A stretch of DNA of 34,773 nucleotides from Defluviitaleaceae bacterium (GTDB lineage Bacteria; Bacillota_I; Bacilli_A; MOL361; Turicibacteraceae): NCBI GenBank assembly GCA_009778135.1, contig WRKJ01000090.1:1-34773 (forward strand), given 5' to 3'. This document shows, piece by piece, positions 3,885 through 15,141 of this stretch. A program made the position numbers and the translations under genes. Numbering within the stretch: the stretch's first letter is position 1; each line of letters opens with the position of its first letter. The notes beneath the pieces were generated by a model. It worked only from the letters and a program-made list of their open reading frames with translations. It was not told where the DNA came from and ran no database searches.

Positions 3885-6365
3885 TTACTCATTCATTTGC
3901 ATAAGTAGATCCTCTTTTAATAACTTTGATGTTCTTTGTCCAATGGTGACGAATAAAAGAAATGATAGAATGGTTAATGCACCTAAAGGAACCAAATAAT
4001 CGAGCGATGAGTTGGTGTGATCAATCGTGGCTAAAAAAACGACAAACAATCCACCATTTATAATCCCTGCGAATGCTCCTAAAAGAAGATATAAGAAGAT
4101 CTGTAAATACACGGTCTTGGCAATATCCTTTGATGGCGTACCAATCGCACGTAAAACAGCATACTCCTTTCGACGTCTGTACATACCAGACACAATAGTG
4201 TTGATGACCCCTAAAGATAGAGATAGGATTACAAGAAACAGCACAACAAGAAAGATTCCATACCGTTCAAGAAACATGGCATTATTCGCTTCAATCATAC
4301 TTTCTAATGTATGCCATCTAATCTCAGGATATCTACTTCTCAACGCATAGAGTGAGTCAATTGTTCTATCCATATCATTTGTACGTATGAATGCTCCATC
4401 GAATACAAAATTTTCTGGTGGTAGTATCTGATTACTCCAATCAATGTAGATGTCAACAAAGGGGGCAAAGCTTAACTCATCAATAATTGCGCCAACCTCA
4501 AAGGTAAAGCTTTCTGTAATTGGGAGAATTTCTCCTGTCCACTCTCCTTCTAAATTAGGATTATACCAAATTGTAAGCATGCTACCGACAGCCAAATTGT
4601 GGAGCTCTGAGAAGTGTCTTGTAATCACTGCAATGTTATCCAAATTCTCGATATCCATATCAAGTTCACCTTGGGCAATGAGCGCCCCCAACGAGAGGTA
4701 TCCCACAAAATAGTGCATACCATCAAGGTTGTTGGTCAATAGATATCCTTGTTCATAGCTCAATATTACTGTATTATCAAAACCTTCAATGGCAATTAGC
4801 TCATTAATAAATTCGAGATCTAGTTGTGAATCAAATTCTAAAATATCTGATACTGCAATATCTAAAAATATATTAGATTTTAAATGTTCAATACTGTTGT
4901 TGTTTATGGTTTGAAGCATAGAGCCACCAAATGTGGCGACTAAGAAAACGAAGAAAATTGAAAACACAATATTTCTTGTTGTTAATAAATTATTTTTCAT
5001 GTTTAATACAGCAATATCAGCAATACCCTTTGATGTTTTTGCTAACATTTTCTTAGTTATATTCAGAAAGATTTGAATCATAGAAGTAAAGAGAAACAAG
5101 AAGCCAAATGTATAAAATAAGATTGCGATAACTGCGCCCCCTCTGTTATCACTTCCATACGAATATTCACTCTCTGAATTGACAAATATGAAAACTGCTA
5201 ATCCCACTAGAATGCCACCCAAGATGTTCTTCCATCTCTTTTGCATTAAGCCACGATCTACTTCCTGTACAATTTGTATCGGGAGCACACGGCTACACTG
5301 AATAGCGGGAATTAACAAAGTGGTAAGAATAATTGAAGAAAAGATTGTAGCAATGAGAACTGCCATTGGGATACTTAGCGTAACAGTAATAGCGAGGGAT
5401 AGTAGAGCGGAAAATGCACGAAATACGAATATGTGCAACGACATGGCTAATGAAACACCTACTAGTGCGCCACTTCCCACCACAATAAGACCTTGTGCAA
5501 AAAGGATTTTCCACAATTGTTTCCCCGATGTTCCAAAAGAGCGCATAACTGAAAATTGCCCTCGATATTTTTCAAGAAATGATTGGAAATTTGAAACAAC
5601 CATAAAGGAACAAGCTAATATTACAATTGCTGAGAGGATATGAACAAAAATCTGAATCGATGATAAATTCTCTACTTCATCTAAAGCATCAGCAATTGAA
5701 GTAATGGTTACATTATCATTAAACTGACGAATATAACTCAACATTTCAACTGTTTGTCCAGGATTATAAAAGGCTATGCCTAAATGATTCCCACTTTGTG
5801 TACCAATTAGCCGAGAAAAATCATCAAACGAAATGACAACAATTCCGAAGCCATAGAAATGACTCCCCTGAGATCCTATAATCTCAATAACTTCAAACTT
5901 GCTATCGTCAATTATAATATATTCCCCAATATCGACTTCTAAAAATTCTGAAACAACTACTGAAATGACTGCCTGATTCGCTAAAATATCTACCTCATAC
6001 TCATAGCGACTTCTTGCAATAGGTGTGTTTTCTGTACCAATGGCGTAAACATTTAGTTGTTGGTCAAAATTATGTTCTGCCCTCACATCAAGGTTATCTT
6101 GGTGAATGGGTAAGACCTCGCTGACGCCATCTACATTCCTAATCGTCTGCACATACTCAGGCGTGATTTCACCAGCAACAAATGCATCAATGCCACCTGC
6201 ACGATTTCGTGCATCCTGGATTAAAGCATGTTGAGCCTGTGAAACAAAGGTAATTATCAGGGTAATCAATGCAATGGATAAAGCAACGCTAATGAAGGCA
6301 GTAATCATAGTCGATTTATTAGATCGTATATTTCTGATAGCAATGCCAAACAAAGAATAGACCAT
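3885..6365 (-). CDS. FtsX/MacB-type ABC transporter permease, candidate immunity or export subunit
   Basis: The 826-residue protein has an N-terminal membrane helix (about residues 20-42), a large extracytoplasmic part (about 45-235), a three-helix FtsX core (about 238-365), a second extracytoplasmic part, and a second FtsX core at the C-terminus (about 690-815, including RRRKEYAVLRAIGTP). This duplicated-FtsX layout is that of antimicrobial-peptide ABC permeases. SD AGGAG lies 10 bases before the ATG. The gene follows the matching ATPase by 7 bases. Its position at the end of a RiPP operon suggests self-protection against, or a second export step for, the peptide; this is inferred from context. 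Confidence 0.8.
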   Translation of the reverse strand: MVYSLFGIAIRNIRSNKSTMITAFISVALSIALITLIITFVSQAQHALIQDARNRAGGIDAFVAGEITPEYVQTIRNVDGVSEVLPIHQDNLDVRAEHNFDQQLNVYAIGTENTPIARSRYEYEVDILANQAVISVVVSEFLEVDIGEYIIIDDSKFEVIEIIGSQGSHFYGFGIVVISFDDFSRLIGTQSGNHLGIAFYNPGQTVEMLSYIRQFNDNVTITSIADALDEVENLSSIQIFVHILSAIVILACSFMVVSNFQSFLEKYRGQFSVMRSFGTSGKQLWKILFAQGLIVVGSGALVGVSLAMSLHIFVFRAFSALLSLAITVTLSIPMAVLIATIFSSIILTTLLIPAIQCSRVLPIQIVQEVDRGLMQKRWKNILGGILVGLAVFIFVNSESEYSYGSDNRGGAVIAILFYTFGFLFLFTSMIQIFLNITKKMLAKTSKGIADIAVLNMKNNLLTTRNIVFSIFFVFLVATFGGSMLQTINNNSIEHLKSNIFLDIAVSDILEFDSQLDLEFINELIAIEGFDNTVILSYEQGYLLTNNLDGMHYFVGYLSLGALIAQGELDMDIENLDNIAVITRHFSELHNLAVGSMLTIWYNPNLEGEWTGEILPITESFTFEVGAIIDELSFAPFVDIYIDWSNQILPPENFVFDGAFIRTNDMDRTIDSLYALRSRYPEIRWHTLESMIEANNAMFLERYGIFLVVLFLVILSLSLGVINTIVSGMYRRRKEYAVLRAIGTPSKDIAKTVYLQIFLYLLLGAFAGIINGGLFVVFLATIDHTNSSLDYLVPLGALTILSFLLFVTIGQRTSKLLKEDLLMQMNE

Positions 6366-6372
6366 ACTAAAA

Positions 6373-7137
6373 CTACTCCTTTCTGTTTACTTTATTTAGT
6401 TGAGACAATACAAAATCAATGGTTAGTTTATTATCTTCTTTGCGATGTTCTGAAAAAATTTTAGAATCATGGAGAAGTATTAATCTATCTGCATATGTCG
6501 CAACTTTAGGATCATGTGTCACAATAATACAGCTTTGCTCTCTCTTTTCTTTGACATCAATAAAAGCTTCCATAACAGACAGGGTAGTCGCATAGTCTAA
6601 ATTTCCAGTTGGTTCATCCGCCAGAAGAACTGGTGGCTCTATTATAATGGCTCTGGCAATGGCGACACGCTGTTGCTGACCGCCTGACATATAGCTTGGT
6701 CTTTGATCCTGATAGCTTTCGATTCCCAAGAGTTTCATGGTAGATAAAACACGTTGTTCTATCTCATTTTTAGGCACGCCTTGCATAATCAAAGGAAGTG
6801 CAATATTCTCCTGTGCAGTCATATCTTTTAATAAATTATAGTGTTGAAAAACAAATCCTATTTGCTTTCTTCGATATGCTGTTGCATTAGGCTCAATAAA
6901 AAAATCATCACAATGCACACCATTAATCGAAACAGAACCTTTGTCTGGAGAATCCATTGCTCCCAAAAGGTTAAGCAATGTCGTTTTTCCTGAACCACTG
7001 CGCCCCATGATAACCAAAAGCTCACCTTTTGATAAAGAAAATGAAACTTCTTGAAGCGCAACAACTGATTGCTTTCCAATTGTATATGTTTTCTTTAAAT
7101 CTTTTACTTCCAGAACATTGTTTTTATTAGCCATCAT
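6373..7137 (-). CDS. ABC transporter ATPase (LolD/MacB/BceA type)
   Basis: The 254-residue product has Walker A GRSGSGKTT (residues 45-53), the Q-loop stretch FVFQHYNLL, signature MSGGQQQR, Walker B VLLADEPTGNLD and a switch histidine in IIVTHDP. These are the marks of the MacB/LolD class that pairs with FtsX-type permeases, here the gene immediately downstream. The start is placed at the ATG at 7137 because AAAGGAAG precedes it closely; an in-frame GTG at 7152 would overlap that site. It probably energises the 826-residue permease. Immunity is inferred from the neighbours. Confidence 0.88.
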   Translation of the reverse strand: MMANKNNVLEVKDLKKTYTIGKQSVVALQEVSFSLSKGELLVIMGRSGSGKTTLLNLLGAMDSPDKGSVSINGVHCDDFFIEPNATAYRRKQIGFVFQHYNLLKDMTAQENIALPLIMQGVPKNEIEQRVLSTMKLLGIESYQDQRPSYMSGGQQQRVAIARAIIIEPPVLLADEPTGNLDYATTLSVMEAFIDVKEKREQSCIIVTHDPKVATYADRLILLHDSKIFSEHRKEDNKLTIDFVLSQLNKVNRKE

Positions 7138-7199
7138 AAATCTTCCTTTCACATCTCAATAATAACCTATAAATAATTTTTGTCAAATATTCTACGCCA

Positions 7200-9053
7200 T
7201 TATTTGTACCATTGAGCCTGTTTTTCAAACATATCTTTGTATTGAACACATGTTCTTATTAATTCTTCATGCGTGCCAGTAGCTAAAATCTGACCATTAT
7301 CCATTAGAATGATTCGATCTGCAAACCGAGTGATTCCTAATCTATGAGAAATCATAACAACTGTTTTCTCGTGTGTCAGTTCTGAAAAAAGTTTGAATAT
7401 TTCTACCTCAGCAACAGGATCTAATGCGGATGTCGGCTCATCTAAAACAATTAGATCATATTTTTTGATTAATCCACGAGCAATAGCAAGTCTTTGCCAT
7501 TGACCACCAGACAAATCAACACCAAAATCATATAGCTTGTCTAATTTTGTATGCATACCTAGATCAAGTTGATTTGTTTTTTTATCGAAACCAACCTTAC
7601 TGAGTAGTTGTTCAATTTCTTGCTCTGTTACTTTGTCTATTGATTCACCAGCACCAATGAGAATATTATCATGAATAGAATAAATGTACCTAATATAATC
7701 TTGCAAGATAGCAGACACTCTTTTTCTGTATGAATTTACATTGTATTCTTGTATGGCATGTCCATTAATCATCATATTTCCATCAAAATCAGAATATAAT
7801 CTTAACAAGATATTTACTAAAGTTGTCTTCCCTGAACCATTTTCCCCAACAATTGCAATTTTTTCTCCCTTTTCAATGGATAAATCAATTCCGTTTAGCG
7901 CATGAGTTGCGCTTCCAGGGTACTTGTAACAGATGCTCTTAAAATCAATTCGATCAATAGAATTAATATTCATCTGTTGAAGGGTTGGTGGTGAACGATA
8001 ATCACCTAAAATACTCATCATTTGGCTCATAGTTAGTTTCATTTCAGATACTCTGCCCGCACCTCCCCAAAATGATTCTAAAGAGCGTTGAATTGTCAAG
8101 ATAGCCGTGGTCAACGAGACATATGCCCCAATGCTGAGCGATTCATGGGCTACCATGTAAATCAAGAAAAATGCTGAAAAAAAACTAACAAGTTGCATCA
8201 AAATCGCAGAAAGAGCCCTTGATTGTGCCCCCTTCTTCTGAAGTTTGATTTCCTTGGATGTGTAATCATAAAACAGCTCAGACCATCGCTTAAGTAAAAA
8301 GGAATCTGAACCAAATATTTTGATTTCCTTCTGACCATTTCGGTCACTAAACAGACCTGTTGTATACATCATTTCGTTAAATGTAGATGCATTATCCCAC
8401 TCTAAATCAAAACGTCGTTTTTTAAATACTAAAATAATAATGAATTGCGGAAGTGTACTCAAAATCAATGCAATAGGTAATGACCAATGTACTAAGAACA
8501 TAATAATAGCAATACCGATAATCTCTATGACATTTGTAACAGCATCCACCATATCTTTTAACAATGAAAAACCATCTTCTTGAATTGCCTCATTCGCTTT
8601 TCTTAATCTTTTCAAAAACATGTTGTTTTCAAAATGATCTATGTTTACGCTACAAAGTGCTTTATATAATGATTTCTGAATTTCAAATGAAGCATCACGT
8701 TTTATAATATCATATAAATGAGAGCTAATCATATTAGATATTACGGCAGCTAATTGAAGCACACAAATTATTCCAACAAGTATCATTACATAGAACAATG
8801 GTTGAGAATCAACGTAAACAGCTGTTGCTGCATTCACGACCTGAACATTATAATAAATAAGTGCTGGTGGAACTAGCGAAACAGCTATAGATAATAATAG
8901 CCATATCACGACAGCTATTTTATTTCTAGCAATACTTTTTTTATATATAGAAATTATCCATTTAACAAATTTTCTATAACCAACTTCAAGATAGATATCT
9001 TGTTCATCTGCCATATCCTCATGATATTTTCTTCGTTCTTCTACTTCTATCAT
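7200..9053 (-). CDS. Lasso peptide ABC exporter (D protein), fused membrane and ATPase domains
   Basis: The 617-residue protein has six predicted membrane helices in the first about 330 residues and a nucleotide-binding domain after about 368: Walker A GENGSGKT (403-410), signature LSGGQ (514-518), Walker B LIVLDE (534-539) and the H-loop in MISHRLG. There is no N-terminal C39 peptidase domain, so it exports without removing a leader. This fits a lasso system, where the B protein cleaves the leader. The start codon overlaps the preceding stop (ATGA), so translation is coupled to the thioredoxin-like gene. Type-I exporters of this form are the standard D component of lasso clusters. Confidence 0.85.
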   Translation of the reverse strand: MIEVEERRKYHEDMADEQDIYLEVGYRKFVKWIISIYKKSIARNKIAVVIWLLLSIAVSLVPPALIYYNVQVVNAATAVYVDSQPLFYVMILVGIICVLQLAAVISNMISSHLYDIIKRDASFEIQKSLYKALCSVNIDHFENNMFLKRLRKANEAIQEDGFSLLKDMVDAVTNVIEIIGIAIIMFLVHWSLPIALILSTLPQFIIILVFKKRRFDLEWDNASTFNEMMYTTGLFSDRNGQKEIKIFGSDSFLLKRWSELFYDYTSKEIKLQKKGAQSRALSAILMQLVSFFSAFFLIYMVAHESLSIGAYVSLTTAILTIQRSLESFWGGAGRVSEMKLTMSQMMSILGDYRSPPTLQQMNINSIDRIDFKSICYKYPGSATHALNGIDLSIEKGEKIAIVGENGSGKTTLVNILLRLYSDFDGNMMINGHAIQEYNVNSYRKRVSAILQDYIRYIYSIHDNILIGAGESIDKVTEQEIEQLLSKVGFDKKTNQLDLGMHTKLDKLYDFGVDLSGGQWQRLAIARGLIKKYDLIVLDEPTSALDPVAEVEIFKLFSELTHEKTVVMISHRLGITRFADRIILMDNGQILATGTHEELIRTCVQYKDMFEKQAQWYK

Positions 9054-9544
9054 GTAATTAAACCTACTGTCTCAAATTCTTCTAAATATTGCTCATAAGA
9101 GATTGATTTTTCTTCAACTTTTAAGTCCTTTATTTTCACTGCAAATGGAAAAATAGTAATATTGAATTCATTTTGTAATTGCTCAAAATTAATACATATG
9201 ATAGGAAAATCATAATTCTGACTCGTTTTCCATTCTGCAATATCCGATTTTTCTCCAACTGCAGCTATTGTCACAAAATCTTGATATTTTAAATAGTCCC
9301 TTTGAATTCTACTCAACATCTCTTTACATTGGAAACAATCAACAGATACAAATAAATATAATTGTTCTTCCTTTTTATTATGTTGCTCCAAGCTATCAAT
9401 AGTGTCAAAATCACTCAAATCTAATATTGAACCAATTTTAGGACCAATCCTTTCGGGATAGTTGAGCTTATAGTCAACGAACCAAAGCCAACACAATAAA
9501 ACTCCCATGAAGACAGTCAACAAGTAAAAAAGTTCTGCATACAT
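9050..9544 (-). CDS. Membrane-anchored thioredoxin-like protein with CXXC (MauD-like)
   Basis: The 164-residue product has one N-terminal membrane helix (about residues 3-24) followed by a thioredoxin-like domain. The latter has an active-site CFQC (Cys70, Cys73) after a hydrophobic strand (YLFVSVD) and a later Pro-containing strand (FPFAVKI), where thioredoxins have their cis-Pro. The ATG at 9544 is chosen: GGGAGG lies 8 bases upstream and the previous gene ends 2 bases before; an upstream in-frame start at 9601 lies inside that gene. It follows a MauE-like membrane protein, as MauD follows MauE in methylamine operons. In this cluster the likely job is disulfide formation or shuffling in the four-Cys precursor, which is inferred. 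Confidence 0.72.
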   Translation of the reverse strand: MYAELFYLLTVFMGVLLCWLWFVDYKLNYPERIGPKIGSILDLSDFDTIDSLEQHNKKEEQLYLFVSVDCFQCKEMLSRIQRDYLKYQDFVTIAAVGEKSDIAEWKTSQNYDFPIICINFEQLQNEFNITIFPFAVKIKDLKVEEKSISYEQYLEEFETVGLIT

Positions 9545-9546
9545 AT

Positions 9547-10074
9547 TTATACCCTCCCAGACAATTGATCGCCATATAATTGACCCAAAAGCACACCCCA
9601 AAAGATTCCTATTGAGGCTAGGCTTATGGGAAGTATTTCATTTAAACGAATTGTATCCATAACAACGAGCAAAGAATCACTGGAAATCAAAAGACAAATA
9701 ATTGTTATAATTAGATAACAGGAAAAATTAAAGAATCCACCAAAGCCAAGCTTAGATTTAATAAGTTTCCCATAACAAAAACAAGCTACACTTTTTCTCT
9801 CTGTTATGACCTTTATATTTAAGGCGATAAAGAAAAGGCAGTAAAAGCAAATTAGGACATATGTATAAATGCTATTAAATAATAGCAATGAAATAAACAT
9901 AGCCAGCTCAAACAATGGCAAAATCATACCTAAAATACGTCCTAACTGGTCAGGGAAATATTCAAGATTGGATGCAAATAAAATTGTATCACGATACCAT
10001 CGCAATTTTGCAACACTGCAAAACAAAAATTTTACTGCCAATACTATAAGTAAGACATCATATATCGTTCTCAT
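9547..10074 (-). CDS. MauE/DoxX-like redox membrane protein, second copy
   Basis: The 175-residue integral membrane protein has four or five helices and a cytoplasmic-side C-F-C motif (Cys98 and Cys100 in SVACFCYG), placed where MauE proteins carry CGCFG. MauE-like proteins are thought to pass electrons between membrane quinones or thiols and a thioredoxin-like partner, much as DsbB/DsbD do. The start is set at the ATG at 10074 with GGAGG 5 bases upstream; the longer frame would begin at a TTG overlapping that site. It lies 12 bases after the first MauE-like gene and 2 bases before the CXXC thioredoxin. Function is inferred from family and context. Confidence 0.68.
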   Translation of the reverse strand: MRTIYDVLLIVLAVKFLFCSVAKLRWYRDTILFASNLEYFPDQLGRILGMILPLFELAMFISLLLFNSIYTYVLICFYCLFFIALNIKVITERKSVACFCYGKLIKSKLGFGGFFNFSCYLIITIICLLISSDSLLVVMDTIRLNEILPISLASIGIFWGVLLGQLYGDQLSGRV

Positions 10075-10087
10075 TTTTTCCTCCAAT

Positions 10088-10525
10088 TTATAAGTAAAAA
10101 ATTAAAAAATTAAGTAACCCTAAGAAAAGTATTGAAATGTTTTTAAAAATAGTTGTGAAATTAACAAAGCGTGGGAGCGTTACATAACACCCACAGTTTA
10201 TATCTGTTACATTTTCCTTTCCAGAAAACATTAAGCAAATATATATGAGTTGAATAAACACAATAAGCAATGATGCAAATCTAACATACCCAGGGAAAAT
10301 TAACATCGGCGTAACAATAAATTCAATTGACAGTAGTAAGATAGGATTTATCTTCTTAAAAATATTGGAATTCAAAGTGTACTCTTGGAATGCACGATAA
10401 TAGTCTCCCAATCGTTGGTTCTTTTTTATAACACTTCTGTAATAAATAATCAAAAGTAAAGCAGAGAAAATATAGTTTAGAGGATGATAGCTAGAGTAAT
10501 CAAAGAAACTTAAAAACATCGTCAT
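10088..10525 (-). CDS. MauE-like redox membrane protein, first copy
   Basis: The 145-residue product is a helical membrane protein with a MauE-type NCGCY motif (Cys111, Cys113) between the third and fourth helices. It differs a lot from the neighbouring MauE-like protein, so the pair is an old duplication or two independent recruits. The start is set at the ATG at 10525, preceded by AAGGAGAGGTGG; the in-frame ATG at 10546 would place that site inside the coding region. It overlaps the end of the thioredoxin-like gene by 26 bases, which points to coupled translation and a working pair. Confidence 0.66.
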   Translation of the reverse strand: MTMFLSFFDYSSYHPLNYIFSALLLIIYYRSVIKKNQRLGDYYRAFQEYTLNSNIFKKINPILLLSIEFIVTPMLIFPGYVRFASLLIVFIQLIYICLMFSGKENVTDINCGCYVTLPRFVNFTTIFKNISILFLGLLNFLIFYL

Positions 10526-10877
10526 ATTCCACCTCTCCTTGTTCATTGCAAAACAACAAACATGGCGTTTCTGTCATATTTATTGTTTCTATAATAAGTG
10601 CGTACTCTTCTAGACTCGCTTCATCTATCCAATATAAATGGACAGGATGGTTATACGCTGTTCTTATCCTTCGCACTGCCTTGTAAAATAACTCAATATC
10701 TTCCTCTTGCTCCTTTTTCAAGCTTATAAGATAGCAACAATCTTTCTTCAATTTAAGTGTTAACAAATCTCGCCTAGATTCAAAAAAATCCATTCGTAAA
10801 GCTAATTTTTTTGATAATAATGCAAATACTAAGATAGTAAAAATTATAAATGAAATAAGTGAGTAAATATATATCAT
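10500..10877 (-). CDS. Membrane-anchored thioredoxin-fold-like protein without CXXC
   Basis: The 125-residue product has an N-terminal membrane helix (about residues 3-22) and a soluble part. The end of that part reads like the second half of a thioredoxin fold: HPVHLYWIDEAS, then ETPCLLFCNEQGEV with Pro105 at the cis-Pro position. The usual CXXC is absent; instead there is Cys47-Cys48 after a short strand, plus Cys106 and Cys110. It may be a chaperone-like or altered-redox partner of the MauE-like protein it overlaps. Its start codon and possible ribosome binding sites lie inside one arm of a 31-bp inverted repeat. The GGAAGG is 15 bases from the ATG; a nearer, weaker AAAGAG may serve. The fold assignment is tentative. 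Confidence 0.55.
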   Translation of the reverse strand: MIYIYSLISFIIFTILVFALLSKKLALRMDFFESRRDLLTLKLKKDCCYLISLKKEQEEDIELFYKAVRRIRTAYNHPVHLYWIDEASLEEYALIIETINMTETPCLLFCNEQGEVEYDDVFKFL

Positions 10878-10902
10878 TGTACTCTTTGCATTCCTTCCTT
10901 CA
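10872..10902 (-). repeat. Inverted repeat arm, right side of the precursor transcript
   Basis: This 31-bp arm matches the reverse complement of 11265-11295 at 30 of 31 positions. On the minus-strand transcript it is the 3' arm and contains GGAAGG (complement of 10893-10898) and the AUG (10875-10877) of the thioredoxin-like gene. The single mismatch becomes a G-U pair in RNA. Confidence 0.95.
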
Positions 10903-10965
10903 TTTTATTTAGATCAGTTTTTTATCTCTAAATCTATATAAAATTTTTATAATTTGTAGCAATTC

Positions 10966-10999
10966 AAAACTTTCAAGTCACAGATAGATTGAAAGTTTT
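10966..10999 (-). promoter_or_regulatory. Stem-loop directly after the lasso precursor stop
   Basis: AAAACTTTCAA (10966-10976) and TTGAAAGTTTT (10989-10999) form a perfect 11-bp stem with a 12-base loop, starting 2 bases after the precursor stop codon on the minus strand. The stem is AT-rich and lacks an adjacent U-tract. I read it as an mRNA-stabilising or partial-attenuation hairpin rather than a full terminator. It would favour precursor over downstream genes. Confidence 0.7.
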
Positions 11000-11001
11000 A
11001 A

Positions 11002-11238
11002 TTAACACTCATGGCCTGTTGCACATCTGGTTTGGTTTCGACATACAGTTGTAGTAGTGAATACTTGTCTATTTCCAACCCATCTTACTGTAGTTGTTGA
11101 TACGCGAGTTCTCCAGTTTGCTCTTCTCGCTCCTGTTCTATCAAGACTCCAATTTTCAACTCCTAATCCACAGCTTCCTTTAACAATGTCAATAGAATTT
11201 CCATGTTTGTTTAGGGAGGGTGCAATATACATTTTCAT
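11002..11238 (-). CDS. Lasso peptide precursor with an unusually long four-cysteine core
   Basis: The 78-residue product begins MKMYIAPSLNKHG, which fits the lasso leader motif YxxPxLxxxG exactly (Tyr4, Pro7, Leu9, Gly13). In the canonical pattern five residues, then a Thr, then one residue precede the core Gly. Here that gives NSIDI, Val19 in place of Thr, Lys20, and core Gly1 = residue 21. Core residue 8 is Glu28, so a Gly1-Glu8 macrolactam ring is expected. The core is 58 residues with Cys at core positions 3, 46, 52 and 58 (the last residue), rich in Thr and Arg. GGAG lies 9 bases before the ATG. It sits between the cyclase and the redox genes. An alternative ring (Gly26 to Asp33) has the wrong leader spacing. 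Confidence 0.83.
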   Translation of the reverse strand: MKMYIAPSLNKHGNSIDIVKGSCGLGVENWSLDRTGARRANWRTRVSTTTVRWVGNRQVFTTTTVCRNQTRCATGHEC

Positions 11239-11264
11239 ATTTAACAGCTCCTTTTTTATGATTT

Positions 11265-11295
11265 TGAAGGAAGGAATGCAAAGAATACAATGATA
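11265..11295 (-). repeat. Inverted repeat arm, left side of the precursor transcript
   Basis: Partner of the 10872-10902 arm. It lies between the cyclase stop and the precursor's ribosome binding site and has no other apparent role. The two arms enclose the precursor gene, its ribosome binding site and its 3' stem-loop. Confidence 0.95.
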
Positions 11296-11299
11296 AAAT

Positions 11300-13051
11300 T
11301 TACTTCCCAGAATTTTCTGCTAACCATAGCTCTAAACACAGCATAGAAAAAATCTCATTGCTAAATTCTTTCCCTGCACGAAAATCCTGTAACATTGTAA
11401 GCCACTCTTCTTTATTCACGTCTGACTCACACAGGTGTTCTTGCCGATACTGCTCCACAACTGAATATACCTTGCTCCAAACCTCATTAATCCCTTTAAA
11501 TGACAAAGAAACATGCTGAGTTTTTTGAGTTTTATTGATAATTCCTGTGGGAAGATATTGCTTCATACCTTCTCTGATTAAATATTTATCTTTAGTTTTT
11601 TGAAATAGCATTTCACCTGGAATAGTATAAATGAATTCAACTAAATCCTTATCCAAAAAAGGATGGCGCATAGAAATATTAAATATTGGTGCCATATCTC
11701 GATCTAAAAGCTTAAACGTTCTAGCATAAAATATTTGCGTATATATATGCCTTTGATTCTGCGTTTTTATCTTACTCATATTACTTTTGAGATGAGCTAA
11801 CATAATATCATCTACTTCCACGCTTTCACGTTTGATAAGATTTTTTATGATGCTTAGGTATATTGATTCATCATACATATGGCTAACATCTTTGAGATAC
11901 TTAAATAGATAAAAAATCCTTCCACGCTTCATTAAATCAACACTTGTAAGCGGAGTTCCAGCCAACAAATAATCCGCTGCATAACCATCAATAAGATTTA
12001 CAATATTATTCTGAAAAGCGTATTCTAATATTTTCAACGTAAAACTAGAAGACAGCGATGGACAATGTGGTTCGTTTGAAATCGGGTATCGTTCGGGATA
12101 GTTTACCAACATCCCACAATCATCACAATTCACTAACCCAGGCTCTGTATTGTACATGCCACATACTTCTTGTATCAATGATGTTTCATCGCAATCCTGA
12201 AGCTGAGCAAACACACCACTCACTGGCTGAATATCATCTATTTCTAAGATACTTTTTGAAATTGCAAACAAAGTAGTAGAATCTAGCCCGCCACTCATAG
12301 CGACTCCATTTTTTTCAGGCAATAATCGGCGTTCTAACGCTTGAGTCATTAGAATTCGAAATTGTTCAAAATATTCATCCTCTGTTTTATAGCGAGTAAT
12401 AGCTTTTACATCACTCAAATCCCAATATTTGTTTGTTTCTATTTTACTACTATCCAAATTGATGGATACATAATGTCCAGGTAACACTCGAAAAACATTA
12501 GCATATGGTGTTTCATTGCCAGTATAAATCCCATTTAACTGAAGAAAATCTCTAAAATACTGTTTGTTCCATTGCTGTTGATCAATAATTTCTTCTAATA
12601 AAAATAAATCTGTACTGGCATTTAAAACGTTATTTGAAAAACACCAAAATATTTCTTTTATCCCTAATGGATCAATAACAAGGAATACTTTATTTTTTCT
12701 CTTATCAAACAATATAAAGGAAAATTCACCATTCAATTCACTAAAGATTTTCGCACCGCACTTCTCATATAACAGCAACAAAAATTCTTCATTAAATTGT
12801 AATTCATACTTATCGCAAAGTTCAGACCAATTAAATATTTCAATATCCCCAAAAATGCAAATATCATCATTTGATATATTAGAGACATCATATTTATACT
12901 TACATGTTTCAATACTCATAAATGAGCAGATATCATCTTTATAATAATCTTGATCGGTTATTTTCAAAGATTTAAATTTACTTTTACAAACTTCTTCTAA
13001 AGTTTGAGGTGGATCAGATCCCCTATTAATACTCCATTTAACCCACTTCAT
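11300..13051 (-). CDS. Lasso cyclase (C protein, asparagine synthetase B-like)
   Basis: The 583-residue product has an N-terminal glutamine-hydrolase-like domain without the catalytic N-terminal Cys2 (it starts MKWVKW), as expected for lasso cyclases that do not use glutamine. It then has an ATP-pyrophosphatase domain with the PP-loop SGGLDST (residues 253-259) and the C-terminal MRHPFLDKDLVEF motif. It should adenylate the ring Glu side chain and join it to the core N-terminus. The start is placed at the ATG at 13051 with AAGGAG 11 bases upstream; an in-frame GTG at 13063 directly abuts that site. It overlaps the B2 gene end by 14 bases. Genuine asparagine synthetase is excluded by the missing Cys and by context. 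Confidence 0.9.
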   Translation of the reverse strand: MKWVKWSINRGSDPPQTLEEVCKSKFKSLKITDQDYYKDDICSFMSIETCKYKYDVSNISNDDICIFGDIEIFNWSELCDKYELQFNEEFLLLLYEKCGAKIFSELNGEFSFILFDKRKNKVFLVIDPLGIKEIFWCFSNNVLNASTDLFLLEEIIDQQQWNKQYFRDFLQLNGIYTGNETPYANVFRVLPGHYVSINLDSSKIETNKYWDLSDVKAITRYKTEDEYFEQFRILMTQALERRLLPEKNGVAMSGGLDSTTLFAISKSILEIDDIQPVSGVFAQLQDCDETSLIQEVCGMYNTEPGLVNCDDCGMLVNYPERYPISNEPHCPSLSSSFTLKILEYAFQNNIVNLIDGYAADYLLAGTPLTSVDLMKRGRIFYLFKYLKDVSHMYDESIYLSIIKNLIKRESVEVDDIMLAHLKSNMSKIKTQNQRHIYTQIFYARTFKLLDRDMAPIFNISMRHPFLDKDLVEFIYTIPGEMLFQKTKDKYLIREGMKQYLPTGIINKTQKTQHVSLSFKGINEVWSKVYSVVEQYRQEHLCESDVNKEEWLTMLQDFRAGKEFSNEIFSMLCLELWLAENSGK

Positions 13052-13478
13052 GAAAGTTTTCACTCCTTAACATAACATTGTACTTTGAAGTTTCATAATC
13101 TGCTTCAAAGAAATTTTCATCCCCTAACATAATCCAAGCATGTGCACTGAATGGAAAAGGACAAGTACCGATAACCAGCGAAACGGGCAACCCATACTTT
13201 TCTCGAATCACGCTGTATAGAAAAAAGGATTGGTGAATGCATTGGGCTTCAAATGGAAGGAATCGGCAAGTTGACATGCACGCTATAATCCAATTATTCA
13301 TCTCATTATCAACCATCAATAATTCCTGCTCAGAATAGGAGCTATAATCAATCAATGGATACCCCTCACTATCATGAGAATACTCCTTAAACATTCGTGT
13401 CAGACCACGCTTCTTAAGCTTAGTGTTGAATTTAATAATAGAATAGTATGCATATAACCAATAATAGCATCGTTTCAT
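13038..13478 (-). CDS. Lasso leader peptidase (B2 protein, transglutaminase fold)
   Basis: The 146-residue product has the Cys-His-Asp arrangement of lasso B2 proteases: Cys80 in FEAQCIHQSFF, His113 in SAHAWI and Asp120 shortly after. It belongs to the transglutaminase-like family that removes the leader peptide. It lies directly after B1 (10 bases) and its end overlaps the cyclase. No strong SD is seen; translation may be coupled to B1. The length is normal for a stand-alone B2. Confidence 0.9.
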   Translation of the reverse strand: MKRCYYWLYAYYSIIKFNTKLKKRGLTRMFKEYSHDSEGYPLIDYSSYSEQELLMVDNEMNNWIIACMSTCRFLPFEAQCIHQSFFLYSVIREKYGLPVSLVIGTCPFPFSAHAWIMLGDENFFEADYETSKYNVMLRSENFHEVG

Positions 13479-13488
13479 AAATGAATCT

Positions 13489-13764
13489 TCATCCCTTCTT
13501 ATGAGATTTTTTTTTGATTATTTTTTCTGCATGAAGTTCGTTCAAGAATTTCTCCACATCTTCAAAGGCTTGTTTTTCAGACATCTCATATTCAACAACC
13601 ATTTTTTTCACTATTTCTTCTTGAGATAACGCCTGTTCAATACATTCCCAAATGTATGATGATACATCATACAAAGAGTAAAACTGACCGCTATCCATAT
13701 CCAACAGTATAAAGCCAGCTTCATTTTTTTGTACAACGATTTCTGGATTTTTAACAAATATCAT
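13489..13764 (-). CDS. Lasso leader-binding RRE protein (B1, PqqD-like)
   Basis: The 91-residue product is a PqqD-like winged-helix RiPP recognition element: strands around VVQKNEAGFILLDMDSGQFY, then helices with SSYIWECIEQ and a C-terminal basic tail. In split lasso systems this protein binds the leader's Tyr-Pro-Leu motif, which the precursor has, and delivers it to B2 and C. It is encoded just upstream of B2. The ribosome binding site before the ATG at 13764 is weak. It is not part of PQQ synthesis, since no other pqq gene is present. Confidence 0.9.
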   Translation of the reverse strand: MIFVKNPEIVVQKNEAGFILLDMDSGQFYSLYDVSSYIWECIEQALSQEEIVKKMVVEYEMSEKQAFEDVEKFLNELHAEKIIKKKSHKKG

Positions 13765-13800
13765 GGTATACCAACTTTCTTCGTGCCCGTCTGATTGCTA

Positions 13801-15141
13801 CTAATACTTATTAAAAAAGAAATTTTGATTGGTAGCAATTTCATTGATAGCATCAGCAATATATTTAACTTCTTTCTGTGTCATTGTCGCATGTAAGGAA
13901 ATCCTCACCCAGCCTGGTTTATTCCCATAAATTCCATCTTTAACTTGATTATGAATGTCGTAAGAAGAATGGTCATCAATTTTCAAAAGTTCATGAGCAT
14001 AAATGGCTGCACAAGAGCAACCACCTCTCGCTTGGATACCGTAAAAATCACTCAATGCTTTAGTTACAATGCTATACGATAGCCCATTAACAACAAATGA
14101 AATTATAGGCATTCTATTTAAATTTTTGGGAGCAAACACACGAATTCGTGAATTAGCAGTTAATGCATCAATTAAATAATTTGTAAAATATGATTCTCGC
14201 AAATGCATGAGTTCAGAACCAATTTCATCTATTAATTGATGTGCCAAGCCTGCTCTAACTGTTTGAAGAATAGCAGGAGTCCCCGGATCTTCCCTTTTTG
14301 ATATCTCATCAAAGAAAACAAATCTTTGTTTTGGATCTGCCCACAGAACAGTTCCTCCAGCTGGAATAGTTGGGGTTTCACATTTATATAGTTCTGGTTT
14401 AAAAAGCAATACGCCTGGACCGCTTGGTCCACCGAGAAACTTGTGAATTCCCCAAAAGGCTGCATCAATATCACCATTACTAAAATCAAGTGATGCGTGT
14501 GGAGCCATTGCAGAATAATCAACAACAACGATTCCATTATATTTTTTGATTATCCTCACAGCTTCAACATAGTTTGTTACTATTCCGGTAACATTAGAAC
14601 AAGCAGTAAATGATCCAATTATAAGGTCGTAAGTTACATATTTCTTTAATGCTTCTTCAAGAATATTCAGATCAATAACACCATTGACGTCTGTATCCAC
14701 AATAACAACCTCTGCTCCAAGAGCAACCCACGTTAAATAATTTGTGTTATGTTCAAAGCTTGAAATGAATACTACTGACTGACTTACCTTATCGACTGAC
14801 ATTATTTCTTGAAATCTGTGTAGTGCAAAGGTTGCACCGGAACCACCAGTAAGCAATTCGTATTTTTCTGTAGCCTTACATGCATCTAATACAGTTGCTC
14901 TTGCTTGTTCGTATACAGAATTAATATATCTACCAATATAGGAGTCATTTGAATGTGTATTGCCATAAAAAGATCCGATTTCATTGATTATTTTTTCTTC
15001 AATCGTGCGATATAATCTTCCACTAGCTGCCCAATCTGCATAAATTAGCTTTTTTTCTCCATTATGGGTTTGTATAACATTATTAATCCCGATTATACTT
15101 TTGCGATATGGTTTTATCATTTTATCTTGCAAATATTTCAT
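13801..15141 (-). CDS. Class-V aminotransferase/cysteine desulfurase-like PLP enzyme
   Basis: The 446-residue product has the fold-type I PLP pattern of the NifS/SufS superfamily: LLTGGSGATFAL near residue 98, His131 in SSFEHNTN, the Asp208 region VVVDYSA, the PLP lysine Lys234 in WGIHKFLGGPSGPG, and RGGCSCAA with Cys375 and Cys377 near the position of the desulfurase catalytic loop. It is the first gene of the lasso operon, 36 bases before B1, with AAAGG 8 bases before the ATG. It could mobilise sulfur from cysteine or act on another amino group of the peptide. It is not a standard lasso gene, and its substrate cannot be read from the sequence. No suf or isc partner genes are nearby. Confidence 0.8.
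   Translation of the reverse strand: MKYLQDKMIKPYRKSIIGINNVIQTHNGEKKLIYADWAASGRLYRTIEEKIINEIGSFYGNTHSNDSYIGRYINSVYEQARATVLDACKATEKYELLTGGSGATFALHRFQEIMSVDKVSQSVVFISSFEHNTNYLTWVALGAEVVIVDTDVNGVIDLNILEEALKKYVTYDLIIGSFTACSNVTGIVTNYVEAVRIIKKYNGIVVVDYSAMAPHASLDFSNGDIDAAFWGIHKFLGGPSGPGVLLFKPELYKCETPTIPAGGTVLWADPKQRFVFFDEISKREDPGTPAILQTVRAGLAHQLIDEIGSELMHLRESYFTNYLIDALTANSRIRVFAPKNLNRMPIISFVVNGLSYSIVTKALSDFYGIQARGGCSCAAIYAHELLKIDDHSSYDIHNQVKDGIYGNKPGWVRISLHATMTQKEVKYIADAINEIATNQNFFFNKY

Follow-up and report, generated by a model that had tools for sequence, protein, structure and literature searches.

A predicted 58-residue, disulfide-rich lasso peptide and a putative family of long-tailed relatives in Bacillota

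Can a lasso peptide carry a tail of 50 residues, and would such a tail stay in the product? The question is raised by one short open reading frame in contig WRKJ01000090.1 of a Defluviitaleaceae bacterium (the window being the whole stretch of 34,773 nucleotides analysed here), which a preliminary description had read as a lasso precursor with a 58-residue core, far above known lassos, whose tail either folds as a domain or is trimmed later. The size comparison is borne out: among the lassos that a June 2026 perspective names, pandonodin has the longest tail, 18 of 33 aa in total (PMC13352647), and a rumen survey predicted lasso cores of up to 42 aa (PMC7533575). The predicted 58-residue product would be close to twice the size of the largest characterised lasso in the searchable literature. 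We found no description of a long-core family in the open-access literature; an earlier listing in survey supplementary tables is possible.

The precursor gene (A) lies directly downstream of the B1, B2 and C genes (Table 1). Its ATG stands 9 nt downstream of an AAAGGAG ribosome-binding site, and its translation consists of the leader MKMYIAPSLNKHGNSIDIVK followed by the core GSCGLGVE NWSLDRTGARRANWRTRVSTTTVRWVGNRQVFTTTTVCRNQTRCATGHEC. A six-frame search of the window for the lasso leader and ring pattern gave one match, versus 0 in 100 shuffles. A profile built from 12 relatives, with the window excluded, matched only this frame in the window (E=1.8e-16), which rules out a chance frame even though the plus strand also has a 78-aa frame (11057-11293). 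RNA folding of the 81-nt stretch around the precursor stop (10930-11010) gave z=-2.7, and the hairpin directly after the stop is possibly a 3' stabiliser or, given its place between A and the redox genes, an attenuator; it may raise precursor dosage relative to the downstream genes.

Table 1. Features of the predicted lasso cluster, in window coordinates
Feature	Coordinates	Strand	Basis
Lasso precursor gene (A)	11002..11238	-	ATG ORF, 78 aa + stop; held-out family profile E=1.8e-16
Leader, 20 aa: MKMYIAPSLNKHGNSIDIVK (Y-17, P-14, L-12, V-2)	11179..11238	-	alignment A5; leader rule PMC10368454
Predicted macrolactam ring GSCGLGVE (Gly1-Glu8), with Cys3	11155..11178	-	G1/C3/E8 invariant; sole acceptor
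50-residue tail with Cys46, Cys52 and C-terminal Cys58	11005..11154	-	sequence, alignment
Ribosome-binding site AAAGGAG	11248..11254	-	sequence
Hairpin, 11-bp stem, directly after precursor stop	10966..10999	-	RNA fold, sequence
RRE / PqqD-like protein (B1)	13489..13764	-	PqqD; lasso RRE structures 9x90, TbiB1, TfuB1
Leader peptidase (B2), Transglut_core3	13038..13478	-	NF033537 above cutoff
Macrolactam cyclase (C), asparagine-synthetase-like	11300..13063	-	Pfam Asn_synthase
Small protein with a membrane anchor; resembles thioredoxin by eye ('ETPCLLF' is cis-Pro-like, CxxC absent)	10500..10877	-	position, homologs; no Pfam match
MauE/DoxX-type redox membrane protein (MauE_b)	10088..10546	-	PF07291 E=1e-9; conserved in clusters
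Second MauE/DoxX-type membrane protein (MauE_a)	9547..10086	-	PF07291 E=6.7e-10
Membrane-anchored thioredoxin-fold protein, CFQC active site	9050..9601	-	weak AhpC-TSA/thioredoxin matches
Peptide exporter, ABC permease-ATPase (D)	7200..9053	-	ABC_membrane + ABC_tran
ABC ATPase of MacB/FtsX-type transporter, likely self-immunity	6373..7152	-	ABC_tran
FtsX/MacB-like permease, partner of the 6373..7152 ATPase	3885..6365	-	FtsX, MacB_PCD

Searches for relatives recovered at least 18 further complete precursors from other Bacillota, 13 with cores of 51-63 aa and five with cores of 39-43 aa. With the window included, 14 of the 19 complete precursors have 51-63-aa cores, and the proposed 58-aa core with its 50-residue tail survives this comparison. 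The 13 complete long relatives come from Paenibacillaceae, Priestia and one other Bacilli genome. A tblastn search of plasmids detected a tandem pair of precursors on a plasmid of Priestia aryabhattai and a single one in Paenibacillus cellulosilyticus. Among 400 genomes from the family to which P. cellulosilyticus belongs, a profile search added ten good matches besides P. cellulosilyticus itself; one of the ten, G738, is truncated at a contig end and does not enter the Cys counts. A sample of 399 genomes of the class yielded one more long member (G843) and one shorter (G897), and a search with profile A3 returned two loci. No other precursor was found in the window's own family and order (8 genomes searched in each) or in a phylum sample of 392 genomes. 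Class-level matches L004-L008 (E of about 0.01-0.07) were dropped as weak, most of them containing in-frame stops, and L031, L051 and L052 were set aside likewise. As judged from these sequences, the best explanation is that the window precursor is one member of an undescribed Bacillota family of giant lasso peptides rich in cysteine. The relatives' clusters are plasmid-borne in two Priestia strains. Both tandem long precursors of the P. aryabhattai plasmid (NZ_CP083270; L002, 574-1038) are without a CDS in the PLSDB gene table, itself incomplete, and genome-mining tools may therefore miss such precursors.

A sister group, with cores of 39-43 aa and the ring Cys at position 2, comprises Priestia megaterium KF18, Lihuaxuella thermophila and G897. 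In all three a DsbA gene adjoins the precursor, joined by VKOR in KF18 and Lihuaxuella, while the G897 contig ends too soon; DsbA/VKOR is a different redox solution for a product of this kind. Two sister-group precursors (40-43-aa cores, ring Cys2, GCGGWGxE), flanked by DsbA and VKOR, stand in each of the clusters L009 (6515-7051) and L011 (9995-10483). Near the P. megaterium cluster lie agr-type quorum-sensing genes (AgrB and a cyclic lactone autoinducer; L009, 13281-13968), which possibly regulate production.

Where the core begins follows from the leader. The spacing of Tyr4 (-17), Pro7 (-14), Leu9 (-12) and Val19 (-2) places core Gly1 at residue 21, as proposed at the outset, and is kept in the 19 complete precursors; spacing of Tyr, Pro and Leu relative to the core start is a described lasso leader rule (PMC10368454). 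Position -2 is Val, versus the canonical Thr, and leaders with Ile or Val at -2 have been described, with cleavage of an Ile(-2) leader demonstrated experimentally (PMC10368454). Core positions 7-9 contain a single acidic residue, Glu8, which is hence the sole ring acceptor, so the ring would be Gly1-Glu8 and the tail 50 residues long. The precursor thus combines the marks by which lasso precursors are recognised: a YxxP-type leader, Gly, Ala, Cys or Ser at position 1 and Asp or Glu at positions 7-9. The check proposed in the preliminary description, an alignment of homologous precursors, was run, and its core start and ring both held: the leader spacing, G1, G6 and E8 are common to the 19 precursors. 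In alignment A5, built from 11 diverse precursors, Y-17, P-14, G-8, S-6, G1, C3, G6, E8, D13, a tail Cys and the last Cys are invariant. Two other starts were discarded, namely Gly24, which is without an acceptor at positions 7-9, and Gly26 (a Gly-Asp ring), which disrupts the leader spacing and does not hold up in the sister group. We consider it very unlikely that the core instead begins five residues later, with an 8-residue Gly6-Asp13 ring (GVENWSLD) and 53 aa in all. Both G6 and D13 are invariant in the long group, but the shift moves Tyr to -22 rather than -17 and loses the conserved Ile/Val at -2, and three sister-group members have Asn, Tyr or Arg at position 13 while retaining G1 and E8.

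The genes adjoining the precursor form a lasso set of B1 RRE, B2 peptidase and C cyclase, in which B1 and C are divergent. Against the NCBIfam lasso models, B2 scored above cutoff and B1 and C below; the 174 bits of C against NF033535, under the curated lasso-cyclase cutoff of 525, mark it as divergent. SGGLDS, D364, K493 and K514 of the cyclase are kept in 13/13 homologs, and Cys80, His82 and His113 of B2 are invariant in 10/10. A class-V aminotransferase/cysteine-desulfurase-like gene lies 36 bp upstream of B1 (13801-15141, minus strand); no homolog of it was found in the relatives' clusters.

The operon B1-B2-C-A-MauE-MauE-Trx-ABC1-ABC2-FtsX is common to the Paenibacillaceae and Priestia clusters with homologous precursors, with some changes of gene order. 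Exporter D is present in all long-family clusters except that of G738, which the contig end cuts. All 7 thioredoxin orthologs examined have a CxxC motif, and the small anchored protein has probable orthologs in the Priestia, G503 and G669 clusters. In the subgroup G703, G619, G478 and G528, the two MauE genes are separated, and a scripted comparison recognised no thioredoxin homolog in the clusters. In one Paenibacillaceae subgroup (L036, L038, L039 and L040), the precursor lies upstream of B1 instead of after C, and a large FtsX-like permease stands between the two MauE-type genes, as a rearranged cluster.

Of the two fates first offered for the tail, retention as a folded domain is favoured over trimming by the near-terminal Cys, the always-even Cys counts, the disulfide-forming neighbour genes and the excess of tail dS over dN. 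The window core has four cysteines, at positions 3, 46, 52 and 58. In 14/14 complete long precursors the last Cys is at the C-terminus or at most two residues before it. Cys counts are even (4, 6 or 8) in 19/19 complete precursors, related sequences that do not amount to 19 independent draws, and they differ between lineages by steps of two, the pattern that gain and loss of cysteines in bonded pairs would be expected to leave. For the G478/G528 pair, tail dN was 0.10 and dS 0.39; the G437/G471 pair was too similar for dN/dS. From these sequence data the long tail looks like a real, retained part of the product. AlphaFold, which is unable to form isopeptides, gave a weak model (pLDDT 58) with a low-confidence beta-hairpin at core residues 18-34/37-49; the model was too weak as a fold-search query, and a PDB profile search with the precursors gave no match.

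We think it unlikely that the tail is instead a follower or carrier, discarded after a lasso of about 20-30 aa has been threaded and excised. Tail sequence and length do vary widely among members, making the tail the most variable part of the precursor; lasso tails can be trimmed, and an Arg-rich tail would be easily cleaved. Yet Cys3 is invariant in the long group, and since the next Cys of the window comes only at position 46, Cys3 would have no partner in a short product. The terminal position of the last Cys, the even counts and the low tail dN speak against a discarded segment as well, and no additional protease gene was recognised in the operon. A different departure from the lasso fold, improbable in our judgement, is that the ring closes while the tail stays unthreaded, giving a branched-cyclic (lariat) disulfide peptide. 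Sequence never reveals threading, and so long a tail might pass through the ring poorly, but the enzymes B1, B2 and C make up the lasso set, and lasso fusions with GFP-size tails are known. It is more remote still that the product is a linear modified peptide akin to the recently described Linear Polyphosphorylated Peptides (LPPs), which also have B1/B2-type genes and share with the window system a lasso-like leader, an RRE, Bacillota hosts and long variable C-termini (PMC13381572). LPPs are phosphorylated, linear and described as without a cyclase (PMC13381572), whereas here a macrolactam cyclase with SGGLDS is present, motif-complete in 13/13 clusters, and E8 is invariant.

Among known lassos, pandonodin (class IV) shares the unusually long tail, which in its case has a disulfide and tolerates protein fusions; its one disulfide, 33 aa and 18-aa tail (PMC13352647) contrast with the 58 aa, 50-aa tail, four Cys (one in the ring) and redox gene set of the window. 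The class I lassos sviceucin, siamycin/MS-271 and aborycin have two disulfides, including a ring-tail bond, and their clusters resemble the window cluster in encoding DoxX-family and CxxC thioredoxin proteins (SviE/SviF; PMC9266682). Their cores are short and begin with Cys1, whereas the window ring starts with Gly and has its Cys at 3, the tail is far longer, and the window cluster differs in its two MauE genes and Bacillota hosts. As classes are described, class I has two bonds and an N-terminal Cys, class III one ring-tail bond and class IV one tail-tail bond (PMC13352647, PMC9266682). By number and position of Cys, none of these patterns fits the window peptide, with Gly1 and its four Cys, or the many relatives with 6 or 8 Cys. 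LP2006, a class IV lasso of 17 aa with a tail disulfide, has the ring GRPNWGFE followed by N, which resembles the GxCGWGxE-N seen here. Paeninodin-type lassos share the split B1/B2 and C and the phylum (in the NCBI sense), but they are short, cysteine-free and kinase-tailored, and the window B1 and C score under the NCBIfam lasso cutoffs.

We infer that the cluster probably makes a disulfide-rich lasso "mini-protein" of 58 residues that retains its full tail, with a predicted isopeptide, presumed threading, a putative disulfide pattern and a suggested activity. The calculated monoisotopic mass of the core is 6511.16 Da; loss of H2O on lactam closure and of 4 H for two disulfides would bring it to 6489.12 Da, with a gain of 4.03 Da on reduction. 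In the proposed route, B1 would bind the YxxPxL leader and B2 would cut after Lys20; C would then activate Glu8 and join it to the Gly1 amine, closing the 8-residue ring around the NWSLDRTG segment that comes next and leaving the remaining tail outside the enzyme, in the manner of engineered lasso-protein fusions. Astexin-1 and pandonodin tolerate GFP/A1 fusions at the tail (PMC8498205), which argues that C sets no tail-length limit. The ABC exporter would carry the reduced, threaded peptide outward, where the four cysteines would be paired, ring Cys3 with a tail Cys and two tail cysteines with each other, by the membrane-anchored CxxC thioredoxin, which the two MauE/DoxX proteins would re-oxidise. 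The bonds would make of the tail a small folded domain, probably a beta-hairpin, that is fastened to the ring. A folded domain could not plausibly pass through an 8-residue ring, so threading should come before the disulfides form, an order that fits export of a reduced peptide followed by oxidation by the anchored thioredoxin/MauE system. How lasso disulfides form is unexplained according to the June 2026 perspective (PMC13352647), and deletion of the DoxX/thioredoxin genes of sviceucin and MS-271 left the products made, so that these genes are dispensable there for disulfides (PMC9266682) and the oxidation step proposed here is uncertain. With two to four disulfides, the need for redox genes may be stronger here than in class I lassos. 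The ABC2/FtsX pair would confer self-protection, which suggests that the product is antibacterial.

The contig appears to belong to its genome bin: the GlmU encoded in its flank is 70% identical to that of a same-genus genome and 59-62% identical to those of five others of the family. GC content is 31-36% across the cluster (3885-15141) versus mostly 39-42% in the flanks, and this low GC, together with a lineage in which no other members were found, makes a recent horizontal acquisition likely.

On balance, and with less assurance than for the single product, we lean towards a family of lasso "mini-proteins" in which an 8-residue threaded ring is joined to a 43-55-residue domain knitted by two to four disulfides and served by a dedicated MauE/thioredoxin or DsbA/VKOR system. 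Since the clusters pair two alternative redox modules with multi-cysteine lassos, disulfide formation becomes testable by gene removal. Characterised lassos are treated as small peptides, and the existence in nature of a family whose tails have 50 residues would bring the lasso fold into the small-protein range. If this is true, nature already makes "lasso-tagged" domains, folded protein domains capped by a mechanical bond.
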